Assembly (NCBI GenBank): GCA_021797815.1
Contig: JAJZYZ010000009.1
Location: forward strand, 1-64,000
Direction: 5' to 3'
DNA from: Bacillota bacterium
GTDB taxonomy: Bacteria; Bacillota; Sulfobacillia; Sulfobacillales; JAIMBI01
Length of the DNA stretch: 64,000 bases
A program made the translations under genes and the position numbers. The notes beneath the pieces were generated by a model. The model saw nothing but the letters and a program-made list of their open reading frames with translations. It was not told the DNA's origin and did no database searches. This document shows, in pieces, positions 21,560-26,564 of the stretch. The first letter of the stretch is position 1. Each line of letters begins with the position of its first letter.

Positions 21560-22678
21560 TTATGAGAGGACGGCCTCCGCCTCCCGATAGGGCAGGTGGT
21601 GCGCATCGGCTACGGCCCGGTAGGTCACGTCTCCCCGATAGACATTCAACCCCGCGCGCAGGCCCGGGTCCCGGCCCATGGCCGCGGGAGCGCCCATGCT
21701 GGCAACGGCGCGGACATACGGGAGCGTCACGTTGGTGAGGGCCAGCGTCGACGTGCGCGGCACCGCGCCGGGCATATTGGCGACCGCGTAATGAATGACG
21801 CCAAAGCGCGTGTAGGTTGGCTGCGAGTGAGTGGTGATGTGATCGATGGTCTCGACAATCCCGCCCTGGTCGATAGCCACGTCCACAATCACGGACCCTG
21901 CCGGCATGTCGCGCACCATCGCTTCGCTCACGAGGTGCGGCGCTCGCGCCCCCGGGATCAAGACCGCACCGACCACAAGATCGGCCCCTGCCGTGGCCTC
22001 GGCAATGTTGTACGCGTTGGAAATGAGGGTGCGGAGCCGCCCGCCGAACTGGTCATCCAGTGCTCGCAGGCGTTCGGCGTTGATATCGATGAGCGTAACC
22101 TCGGCCCCGAGTCCAATTGCGATACGGGCGGCGTTGGTTCCGACGATCCCGCCTCCCACGATGGTCACCCGCCCGGGCAGAACCCCGGGCACGCCACCCA
22201 GGAGCACGCCACGGCCTCCGTAAGGCTCCTCCAGGAACTGTGCCCCGATCTGTGTCGCCATGCGCCCCGCGACTTCCGACATGGGAGTCAGGAGCGGCAG
22301 CGATCCGTCGCGGGCGGTCACCGTTTCGTAGGCGATGGCGGTGATTCCGCTCTCCAAAAGCGCCACCGTCAAGGCGCGTTCGGGGGCTAGGTGAAGGTAC
22401 GTAAACAAGACCAAATCGTTTCGAAAATATTGATACTCGCCAGCCAACGGCTCCTTCACCTTGACCACCAGTTGAGCGTCCCGCCACACATCGCCGGCCG
22501 CGTCGCAGATCCGCGCCCCGCTGGTCGCGTACTGTTCGTCGGCAAAGCCGCTGCCGGTGCCGGCTCCCCGCTCCACCAGGACCTCGTGTCCGTCAGCCGT
22601 CAGCACCTTGACGCCCCCCGGCGTGAGCGCCACTCGGTTCTCGTCAGCTTTGATTTCCCTGGGTAGTCCAATGCGCAT
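21560..22678 (-). CDS. ald: Alanine dehydrogenase
   Basis: The 372-residue product catalyses reversible NAD-dependent deamination of L-alanine to pyruvate. The family start [20 protein letters not shown] is present, [10 protein letters not shown] gives the conserved catalytic region, and [17 protein letters not shown] near residue 170 is the NAD-binding Rossmann motif. The ATG at 22678 has GGGAGG upstream; an earlier codon at 22708 is less likely. In spore formers Ald is often linked to sporulation nutrition or germination, here only an association. Confidence 0.95.
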
Positions 22679-22927: not shown

Positions 22928-23461
22928 CTATGCGCGAGGGTGCCGCCCGAGCCAGACCGTGGCACCCGTGTGAAAGAGGGCATTCAACGGCTCCGCTCCA
23001 AGAATCATCTGGCACACCTGGGGGGGAGAAAGCAGGACGACTTCCATGCCTGCCGCCTCTTCCCCCGACTCGCGGTGCGGAAGCCCGGCCGCGGGATCGG
23101 CGGTGAAGAAAAAGCTCACAAGCTCATTGGTGTAGCCCGGGCTCGGATAAAGATCAAAAAGGCGGACGAGATGCTCGGCGCGATAGCCCGTCTCTTCGGC
23201 AAGCTCCCGACGGGCCGCCTGCTCTGGGCTTTCACCGGGGTCGACTTTGCCAGCCGGAAGTTCATACAGCACCCGTCGCACTGCCGGCCGCTCCTGGCGG
23301 ATGGCAAGAAGGGCGCCGTCCACGTCGGCAACCACCGCCACCGCCGGAACCCGGTCGACGACCTCGTAGCGGTGCGGACGGCCGTCGGGCCCCGGGCGCT
23401 CCTCCACCCGCACCTGAAACGCACGACCGGAAAACACGGCATCGTTGTCAGGCGGGGCCAT
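22928..23461 (-). CDS. nudF: ADP-ribose pyrophosphatase (Nudix hydrolase)
   Basis: This 177-residue protein carries a full Nudix box, GKVDPGESPEQAARRELAEETGY (residues 71-93). The adjacent LYELPAGK and the later YPSPGYTNE segment mark the ADP-ribose pyrophosphatase subgroup, which cleaves ADP-ribose to AMP and ribose-5-phosphate. The ATG at 23461 overlaps the upstream Hfq-like gene by 14 bases and has GAGGGAA upstream, so the two are probably co-translated. The Nudix gene keeps its place near xerD, though spoIIM and fur are missing between them. Confidence 0.93.
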   Translation of the reverse strand: MAPPDNDAVFSGRAFQVRVEERPGPDGRPHRYEVVDRVPAVAVVADVDGALLAIRQERPAVRRVLYELPAGKVDPGESPEQAARRELAEETGYRAEHLVRLFDLYPSPGYTNELVSFFFTADPAAGLPHRESGEEAAGMEVVLLSPPQVCQMILGAEPLNALFHTGATVWLGRHPRA

Positions 23462-23753
23462 CGATCGCGGTTCCCTCACGCTCCAGGGCTGCTAGATAGC
23501 GAAGACCATGCCGGAATACAATCCGCGCCTGTCCGTCCTCGCCCACCAGGTAGAGGGCGTCCCGGCCCACGCCGATAAGCTGGGCCTCCCACTCGGTGCC
23601 GTCCATAGAACCGACGACCAGGCGGCGCCGCTCGCGGAGCCAGACCCGCAGCACTCGATCCACGTCGTCCGGCGGCGTCGCTGATTCCTCGACTCCGGGG
23701 TCGGTCCACCCCGTCCGCACATAGCGCGGAGCATCGGCACCGTCCTCCATCAC
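23448..23753 (-). CDS. Small Sm/Hfq-like protein
   Basis: This 101-residue product has a central stretch (residues 46-88) that follows the Sm fold of Hfq closely. RRLVVGSMDGTEWEAQLIGV matches the first strands (VTVFLVNGxxLxGxVxxxD), and RIVFRHGLRYL matches the Hfq LVYKHAISTI strand, with the histidine of the KH motif retained. Hfq hexamers bind small RNAs and mRNAs. Length and the acidic N-terminal extension differ from canonical Hfq of about 70-80 residues. The start is GTG 23753 or ATG 23750, overlapping the upstream stop. This is fold-level resemblance; RNA binding is inferred. Confidence 0.6.
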   Translation of the reverse strand: MMEDGADAPRYVRTGWTDPGVEESATPPDDVDRVLRVWLRERRRLVVGSMDGTEWEAQLIGVGRDALYLVGEDGQARIVFRHGLRYLAALEREGTAIDGPA

Positions 23754-24403
23754 TGCGACTGACGGCGGGCCTTGTCACAGGCGTCCACCGTCGCCTCCGC
23801 GGCCGCGCGATGCGGGTCATCCACCACCTGTGCCGTCCCGCAGGCCATCTGCTCGCGCCCTCGTGCGCTGACGAAGGCGACGGCCACCGCGACCCAATGG
23901 GCACCGGCCAGTTCCCAGGTTGCGACATCGCGCAGCGCGAAGGGCCCGGCGGCACTCATCTGCTCCACCGCGTCGAGTGCGGCCTCGGCCACGGTCCACA
24001 CCTGGTGACTCGGCAGGTACCGCGACTCCCGCCTCCCCACCACCGGCGCCGAGCCTTCCTCGGCGCCGATCAGTGACACCTCGGCCACCATGCGTCCGCC
24101 CACGGGGTCAAGCTGCATGCCATAATGCTGCAGGACGGGACGCACCCAGCCGTCCGGCTCCCGCACACCACGGACCTGCGCGACCGAAATGCGTTTGTGG
24201 TCGAGACGGATGCTGTAGCCGGCAGCCAAAGCACTCTCGATATCGCGCACGATCTGCTTGGCCGGTCGGCGGTCAGATGCCAGGACGTGGACCTCTTCAA
24301 TGAGGCCCATGTCGTTGACGGCAATACGGCAGCGCTCGATGCCGGGAAGCTGGCCTATCAGATGCTCGAGCGACTCGACGGGAACCCTCTCGGATGTCGC
24401 CAT
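23750..24403 (-). CDS. Conserved-looking protein of unknown function, with an N-terminal alpha/beta domain
   Basis: I do not recognise this 217-residue protein. Residues 8-65 form a compact alternating segment (IERCRIAVNDMG, IEEVHVLASD, AKQIVRDIESAL, GYSIRLDHKRISVAQV) that reads like a small KH- or ferredoxin-like domain. The C-terminal half, alanine-rich with MVAEVSLIGAEEG, may be a second alpha/beta domain. No signal peptide or membrane segment is seen. The stop overlaps the start of the Hfq-like gene by four bases (GTGA), so both are probably translated together, which suggests an RNA-related role. Confidence 0.6.
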   Translation of the reverse strand: MATSERVPVESLEHLIGQLPGIERCRIAVNDMGLIEEVHVLASDRRPAKQIVRDIESALAAGYSIRLDHKRISVAQVRGVREPDGWVRPVLQHYGMQLDPVGGRMVAEVSLIGAEEGSAPVVGRRESRYLPSHQVWTVAEAALDAVEQMSAAGPFALRDVATWELAGAHWVAVAVAFVSARGREQMACGTAQVVDDPHRAAAEATVDACDKARRQSQ

Positions 24404-24429: not shown

Positions 24430-25497
24430 CTATTCCGGAATATACGTCCTGCGGACACGGCCTATCAAATCCAAGCGCTGCAATGCGAGATGATTGGCGG
24501 CATCGGAGGTGGAAATGCCTTCGCGGTCGGCGATCTGGAAAACCTCACGCAGCTGATCGCCGATGGCCCGCACACGCGTGATAGCCCGGTCACGATGGTA
24601 CCCATCCGGGTGAAACTCGTCGGCCACATTGACGACCCCGCCTCCGTTTATGACGAAGTCGGGTGCATACAGGATGCCGCGCTGGCGCAGCATGGCGCCG
24701 TGCCGCTCCTCGGCCAACTGGTTGTTGGCCGACCCCGCGACCACCTTGCATTGAAGGCGTGGGATGGTGTCATCGTTTAAAATCGCTCCCAGCGCGCAGG
24801 GCGCAAACACATCGCAGGGGACGTCATAAATGGCCGCGGGCTCGACCCAGCGGGCACCGAGTCGGGCGGCGGCGGCCTGGCCCGCGGCCGCATGGATGTC
24901 CGTGGCGGTGACGGTCGCGCCGGCGTTCACCAAAAGTTCCACGAGGCCGCAGCCAACATGGCCAAGGCCCTGCACCGCCACGTGCCGGCCGTCCACGGCG
25001 GACCGCCCGTCAACGGCTTCGAGAGCCGCGCAGATGCCCTCGAAGACGCCCCGTGCCGTAACCGGGGAGGGGTCGCCGCTGTTTTCCGCCAGGCCGCCGA
25101 CGTAACGCGTCTCCCGGGCCACAATGGCCATGTCCTCGGCGGTGACGCCCACGTCCTCGGCCGTGATGTAGCGTCCCCCCAGGGACTGAACCAGTCGCCC
25201 GAAACTCCGAAAGAGCGCTTCTGTCTTGTCGCTTTCGCTGTCGGCCCACAAGACGGCCTTGCCGCCTCCCATATCAAGACCCATCGCGGAGTTCTTGAAT
25301 GTCATGCCGCGCGAGAGACGCAGGGCATCGGTCACGGCCTCTTCTTCCTCGGCGTACTGCCACATCCGGCATCCACCCAGCGCCGGACCGAGCGAGGTGT
25401 CATGGATGGCGACAATCGCCCGCAGCCCAATTTCCCTGTCGTACCAGAAGACGATCTCCTCGTGCCCGTGCTCTTTCATCGCGTCGAAAATATTCAT
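24430..25497 (-). CDS. Leucine dehydrogenase (Glu/Leu/Phe/Val dehydrogenase family)
   Basis: This 355-residue NAD-dependent enzyme deaminates branched-chain amino acids. The conserved catalytic region is MTFKNSAMGLDMGGGKAVL (residues 66-84) with the active-site lysine, preceded by GPALGGCRMW. The Rossmann motif is VQGLGHVGCGLVELL near residue 175, and APDFVINGGGVVNVADE lies near residue 290. Length and the LGGCRMW text favour leucine over glutamate dehydrogenase. The ATG at 25497 matches the usual family start; longer frames upstream are Arg/Pro-rich. It follows spo0A on the same strand after a hairpin. Confidence 0.92.
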   Translation of the reverse strand: MNIFDAMKEHGHEEIVFWYDREIGLRAIVAIHDTSLGPALGGCRMWQYAEEEEAVTDALRLSRGMTFKNSAMGLDMGGGKAVLWADSESDKTEALFRSFGRLVQSLGGRYITAEDVGVTAEDMAIVARETRYVGGLAENSGDPSPVTARGVFEGICAALEAVDGRSAVDGRHVAVQGLGHVGCGLVELLVNAGATVTATDIHAAAGQAAAARLGARWVEPAAIYDVPCDVFAPCALGAILNDDTIPRLQCKVVAGSANNQLAEERHGAMLRQRGILYAPDFVINGGGVVNVADEFHPDGYHRDRAITRVRAIGDQLREVFQIADREGISTSDAANHLALQRLDLIGRVRRTYIPE

Positions 25498-25701: not shown

Positions 25702-26493
25702 TCAGCTGGCCTTCATCTGGATGCGGAGGCGATCCGCCACCATGGCGATGAACTCGGAGTTGGTAGGCTTGCCCCTCTCCCGACTCACCGTATGACCGAA
25801 GATATCGTTGATGACGTCCACATTGCCCCGGCTCCACGCCACCTCAATGGCATGGCGAATGGCGCGTTCCACGCGGCTTGGCGTCGTGTGGTGCTTCGCG
25901 GCAATCGCCGGGTAGAGCTCCTTCGTGACGCCAGACAGGAGGTCCACGCGGTGGATCACCATCATGATGGCCTCACGGAGGTACAGGTACCCCTTGATGT
26001 GGGCCGGGATGCCGAGCTCGTGGATGACGTTCGTGACTTCCACATCCAGATGGCGGACCGGCATCAGCTGCACCCGAGCGCCATACGCACCGAAACTCTC
26101 CGCCGGCGGCCGCTCGGTTTCGGCCGTCGTCGCCACCTGCCGGATGCGGCTTGCCAGCACGCTCAGATTGAACGGCTTCAAGATGTAATAATCGGCCCCC
26201 AGCTCCAGGGCTTTATGGGTCATGACCTCGCGCCCGAACGGCGTCAGCACGATGACTTTGGGCCGTCGACTCTCCCAGCTGGCGAGGCGCTCCAGCACGC
26301 CGATCCCATCCAGGTGGGGCATGATGATGTCGAGGACCACAACGTCCACCGTGTGCGCCTCCAGAAATTCCAAGAGTTCTACCCCATGATGGACGATGCC
26401 GGCCACGTCCAGGCCTTCCTCTGTTTGCACCGCGTCCCGCAGCAGTTCGCAGAACTCTCGGTTGTCATCCGCAATCAAGACTTTAATGGACAC
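25702..26493 (-). CDS. spo0A: Stage 0 sporulation response regulator Spo0A
   Basis: This 263-residue master regulator is activated by phosphorylation and binds 0A boxes. The receiver domain has the acidic pair in IADDN, the phospho-acceptor Asp in [11 protein letters not shown], Thr in LTPFG and Lys in ILKPF. The DNA-binding domain is nearly that of Bacillus: [19 protein letters not shown]-like text, [21 protein letters not shown] (recognition helix) and [13 protein letters not shown]. The start is GTG 26493 behind GGAGGGGG. No inactivating change is visible. It usually follows spoIVB, but here an MFS gene lies upstream. The window shows none of its usual sporulation targets. Confidence 0.97.
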
Positions 26494-26541
26494 GTGGGGC
26501 CCCCTCCGTCGCGCACGTCGCCGGTGCGGTTTCACGTCCTT

Positions 26542-26564
26542 CGTTCCGTTGTCTCCCATCTCCT
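26542..26564 (-). promoter_or_regulatory. Possible sigma-H-like promoter for spo0A
   Basis: On the minus strand AGGAGAT is followed after 11 bases by GAACG, about 50 bases before the GTG start. This approximates the sigma-H pattern (AGGAWWW, 11-12 bases, GAATW) that drives sporulation-phase spo0A expression in Bacillus. The -10 part deviates, so the match could be chance. Confidence 0.25.

Follow-up and report, generated by a model that had tools for sequence, protein, structure and literature searches.

HfqL, a probable diverged Hfq of a distinct lineage linked to the up217 gene family in the order Sulfobacillales

Between a gene of an uncharacterised family, here named up217, and a nudF-like gene, the window (the whole 64,000-nucleotide stretch analysed) carries a short reverse-strand reading frame, whose product an earlier note had taken for an Hfq-like Sm-fold protein. 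Is this frame a gene, and does it encode an Hfq? The frame is present where it had been reported, at 23448-23753, and translation more likely begins at the ATG at 23750 than at the GTG at 23753 (sequence at the start, CAGTGATGGAGG). As this ATG shares bases with the TGA stop codon of the gene upstream (TGATG), the protein, which we named HfqL, probably has 100 amino acid residues. Coordinates are listed in Table 1.

The HfqL gene is real and not a chance frame, because a copy in the congener G001 evolves with a dN/dS of 0.16 relative to the window, a value indicating purifying selection, and positional orthologs are present across the order. The congener copy is 65% identical and occupies the same location; for the same pair of genomes (G000 of the window and G001), dN/dS was 0.06 for up217 and 0.16 for nudF. 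HfqL evolves faster than its neighbours (up217 is 92% identical between window and congener), and it was not found in G002 and several genomes of family f3, as might be expected of a decaying gene whose constraint is relaxed and which is heading for loss. Such decay is most improbable given the low dN/dS, the predicted fold, which is kept, and the reading frame, which is intact in all six members of the window's family (f1) that have the gene. HfqL is dispensable in some members of the order, since in G018 and G030 up217 is followed directly by nudF and HfqL is absent.

Table 1. Features of the HfqL locus in the window.
Feature	Position	Strand	Basis
HfqL, diverged Hfq/Sm-fold protein, 100 aa	23448..23750	-	ORF, orthologs, predicted fold, dN/dS
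Sm domain of HfqL, residues 27-88, helix and five strands	23487..23672	-	AlphaFold2 pLDDT blocks, Foldseek
N-terminal extension of HfqL, residues 1-26, predicted disordered	23673..23750	-	pLDDT 40-59, alignment
up217, gene of uncharacterised protein family, 217 aa, directly upstream of HfqL	23750..24403	-	stop overlaps HfqL start (TGATG)
nudF-like NUDIX hydrolase, ADP-ribose pyrophosphatase type	22928..23461	-	Pfam NUDIX 4e-20, NCBIfam
Leucine/Glu-type dehydrogenase gene, conserved neighbour	24430..25497	-	translation, synteny
spo0A, conserved neighbour	25702..26559	-	translation, synteny
Alanine dehydrogenase gene (ald), conserved neighbour	21560..22678	-	translation, synteny
Promoter-like site TTGATA-18-TATATT upstream of up217	24439..24468	-	consensus scan only

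Searched alone, the HfqL protein had no Hfq match in Pfam, NCBIfam or PDB, and a single-protein search of the genome contigs returned nothing usable. The window protein does not pass the cut-off of the Pfam Hfq family PF17209, but many of its order orthologs do, positional orthologs across the order matching PF17209 with E-values down to 2.2e-12 and the NCBIfam Hfq model down to 3.5e-13. With a threshold of E up to 0.1, 15 of the 20 aligned members matched Pfam Hfq and 15 matched NCBIfam Hfq. When the profile of these 20 members was compared with PDB, the best matches were all Hfq (2e-10), with Sm/LSm proteins ranking behind. In HHalign, the order family aligned both with the window's family (probability 97%, E 1e-10) and with classic Hfq (probability 97%, E 3e-11), while the direct comparison of f1 with classic Hfq was weak (probability 42%, E 2.6e-4). 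HfqL is therefore identified as an Hfq through intermediates, its homology to recognised Hfqs resting on profiles and synteny; the HMM searches reach Hfq from the orthologs and the family profile, although the window protein alone matches none. One family alignment, A6, proved too varied for scanning the collection. A scan of viral contigs found no HfqL relatives, and thus there is no evidence of phage carriage.

AlphaFold2, run as a monomer prediction with five sequences only as input, gave HfqL a helix (residues 27-39) followed by strands at 43-48, 53-61, 65-70, 75-79 and 83-88, with pLDDT of 81-90 in 10-residue blocks over residues 31-90. This predicted N-terminal helix and five-stranded bent sheet is the Hfq architecture, and the strand pattern that had been noted in residues 46-88 is thereby borne out over a wider stretch. 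All of the 50 best Foldseek matches to the model were Hfq, many of them with an rmsd of about 0.9-1.5 Å across 57-61 residues; the TM-scores by target length were 0.90 for 1kq2 (rmsd 0.9 Å) and 0.91 for 3hfo. No fold other than an Sm beta-barrel was obtained, so the Sm-fold assignment of the earlier note stands, backed by the predicted fold, by the profile searches and by a locus shared with recognisable Hfqs. Its proposal of extensions at both ends holds for the N-terminus, whereas the C-terminal tail comprises only about 12 residues. In the alignment, an RYVR motif within the N-terminal extension is the counterpart of W-V-E-V-P near the start of relatives. The sole Pfam trace for HfqL alone was PUA_4 (E 0.04, below the cut-off), which we dismissed as chance. 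It would suit a small beta-barrel of another kind, SH3- or PUA-like, with a superficial likeness to Hfq, an idea we consider next to impossible with the Foldseek result above and with orthologs that are recognisable Hfqs joined to the window's family by HHalign profile links.

Does the bacterium have another Hfq? Its genome is 97.75% complete, and a PF17209 search of it gave no match; PF21979 gave a chance-level trace elsewhere (E 0.86) and none at the HfqL gene. No Hfq lies within about 1.5 kb of miaA in G000, G007, G012 or G017, and a canonical miaA-linked hfq was not found in the order genomes examined. A separate canonical hfq, which the earlier note had left to be looked for, was thus found neither in the genome nor beside miaA, and HfqL appears to be the only Hfq of the window's bacterium. 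Its position in a spo0A-up217-nudF locus is not the miaA/mutL neighbourhood of the classic clade (PMC11607428); in G098 and G129, the classic hfq adjoins miaA.

The related genome G098 holds both types: L063 is a classic hfq linked to miaA, and L062 is an HfqL that is linked to up217 and has a long N-terminal extension. The two contigs have GC contents of 0.578 and 0.587 and a tetranucleotide correlation of 0.955, compared with 0.38-0.73 for contigs of other genomes, and G098 has one spo0A-locus-type up217 only. Contamination was judged unlikely from this matching composition and the single up217. Because G098 carries both genes, we favour reading HfqL as a paralog. In the simplest history, hfq was duplicated, one copy entered the up217 locus and the classic copy was later lost; relocation of hfq with a subsequent regain in G098 is a possible alternative. 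In a tree of 65 rows, all 26 classic Hfqs grouped on one side (support 100/99) and every HfqL fell outside. The tree was built on 72 columns and has long branches, so its finer branching is unreliable; a single clade of up217-linked HfqL was neither established nor rejected (p-AU 0.43).

HfqL might instead be no paralog but the ordinary Hfq ortholog, transferred from beside miaA into the spo0A-nudF locus, diverged, and still performing the Hfq job. Hardly any genome has more than one detected Hfq, classic or HfqL, and most of the order retains the proximal uridine pocket (see below), both of which suit such a move. The pair of genes in G098 on contigs of matching composition, the classic clade that excludes HfqL, and the lost distal and rim sites of HfqL speak against it, and we regard it as possible though somewhat doubtful.

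Diverged, N-terminally extended Hfqs were also seen in families f26, f34 and f35 of the class (L064, L066, L067, L068, L069, L070, L074, L181); they have no detected up217 neighbour, and classic Hfq was not found in their genomes.

The genes around HfqL are arranged across the order, with variations, as spo0A (the sporulation master gene), leucine/Glu-type dehydrogenase, up217, HfqL, nudF, ald, xerD and deoB. up217 lies directly upstream of HfqL on the same strand in 34 of 34 order genomes examined (the window included), and its stop often overlaps the HfqL start; at classic hfq loci, it is directly upstream in none of four. On the other side, the nudF start at ATG 23461, preceded by GAGGGA, gives an overlap of 14 nt with the 3' end of HfqL, and an alternative start at GTG 23479 would give 32 nt. 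The translational coupling to NudF that had been proposed has this overlap in its favour, but the tight arrangement is confined to G000 and G001, the two genomes of the window's genus; in most other order genomes a gap of about 20-355 nt separates HfqL from nudF, and the sister genus g3 showed no NUDIX gene downstream of HfqL. Since the nudF overlap is limited to the genus and the up217 adjacency is order-wide, coupling of HfqL with up217 is the better supported of the two and is the conserved one. The promoter-like site upstream of up217 is a possible operon promoter, judged from its match to the consensus. In the sister genus g3 (L043, L044, L045, L046), a SpoIIM-like frame follows HfqL in place of nudF.

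In E. coli Hfq, the proximal uridine pocket comprises Q8, F/Y42, K56 and H57 and the arginine patch R16, R17 and R19 (PMC5379935, PMC10628458). Classic Hfq relatives kept Q8, F42, K56 and H57 in 24 of 24 cases. The order families f2 and f3 kept Q8, Y42 and K56 (23/23 each), with H57 replaced by S or Q in 21 of 23, and lost the rim arginines and the distal aromatic positions. In the window's family, Q8 is changed to V/E, D40 to G, F42 to D/H, K56 to R and H57 to H/Q/W, so that the window protein has V30, D64, R80 and H81 at the pocket positions. Loss of binding sites is therefore graded by family, affecting the distal and rim sites in most and the proximal pocket too in f1. The 'KH histidine' of the earlier note is actually R80-H81, aligned to K56-H57. 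The H81 position is H or Q between two species of the genus and W in the sister genus, and as it is unconserved even within the genus, it is weak evidence for Hfq on its own. The earlier suggestion of an undescribed RNA-binding factor also has to be narrowed, because existing Hfq models already recognise the wider family and the uridine-pocket residues are replaced in the window protein.

With these residues replaced in the window's family, RNA binding may be lost. It could be that the Sm ring of f1 became a protein-interaction or scaffold subunit working with up217 and binding no RNA; that the known pocket residues are all replaced or unconserved in f1, and that up217 adjacency is conserved with frequent start/stop overlap, would fit this. 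R42 and R43 at the basic helix end (RERRR) are invariant in the six f1 members, as would suit contact with nucleic acid, and we think a scaffold role rather unlikely.

HfqL thus represents a diverged Hfq from a separate lineage tied to up217, and its RNA binding is putative. It shares with classic Hfq (PF17209; B. subtilis YmaH, E. coli Hfq) the helix and five-strand Sm fold and the residues G29 and L12, and its order orthologs pass the Pfam cut-off. It differs in its locus (up217-nudF, not miaA/mutL), in its added N-terminal extension and, in the window protein, in the replacement of Q8, D40, F42 and K56 and the changed rim and distal residues. Mobile/cyanobacterial Hfqs (PF21979, Hfq_1; Synechocystis Ssr3341, PDB 3hfo) have the fold of HfqL and also lack the classic RNA-site residues. 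However, the best matches of HfqL family members were stronger to PF17209 than to PF21979 (1.1e-12 and 1e-5, respectively), and the HfqL locus is fixed by synteny across the order rather than carried by mobile elements. The Bacillus cereus group has second Hfq paralogs, Hfq1/Hfq2, one of them plasmid-borne (PMC5348863, PMC9037596), which set a precedent for more than one Hfq per Firmicutes genome; they come from other Bacilli. The role of Hfq in Gram-positive bacteria has been termed elusive (PMC4410918). The order offers a natural experiment on the functions of Hfq that matter, since the canonical hfq is apparently gone, a relocated paralog persists, and its binding sites have been lost to differing degrees in different families.

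We consider it probable that HfqL is an Hfq that has diverged strongly, that its Sm-fold subunits should form a ring, and that it belongs to an up217-linked paralog lineage. This lineage would have settled downstream of up217 in the spo0A-nudF-xerD locus, and with the miaA-linked hfq gone, HfqL is apparently the sole Hfq left in the order. HfqL would be translated together with up217, would assemble into a hexamer-like ring, and may handle single-stranded RNA. In most of the order, where Q8, Y42 and K56 of the uridine pocket are kept, the proximal pore would be its main site of action, the distal A-site and the arginine rim used in sRNA-mRNA annealing being absent; the ring of these relatives may thus bind uridine at the pore and have no annealing activity. 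In f1, HfqL may bind RNA differently or have become a protein-interaction subunit; any RNA contact that persists would involve the arginine-rich helix end (RERRR), its specificity would be altered, and up217 might take part.

HfqL ties an Sm protein to the uncharacterised up217 family, and we found no description of an up217-linked Hfq in the open-licence literature. More speculatively, HfqL and up217 could form a dedicated, previously undescribed complex of the spo0A region, a separate bacterial Sm branch beside the classic and mobile Hfq clades, in which the Sm ring of other families would read uridine at the pore only and f1 would have swapped the Hfq pocket for new chemistry.

up217 was detected in 156 of the 398 phylum genomes searched (about 39%), sometimes in two copies per genome. 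It has no Pfam family and no PDB relative by sequence. In its predicted structure (mean pLDDT 80), an alpha-beta-beta-alpha-beta domain precedes one of the beta3-alpha-beta3-alpha type, and the predicted C-terminal half weakly resembles the regulatory domains of LeuA/citramalate synthase (3f6h, TM 0.59 by target), a likeness to be taken as a lead only. The gene with this LeuA-like half adjoins the leucine/Glu-type dehydrogenase gene. In other classes of Bacillota, some up217 homologs (L128, L133, L136) adjoin hpf-like (ribosome-hibernation-factor) and cspA-like genes, which may point to a connection with translation or RNA.
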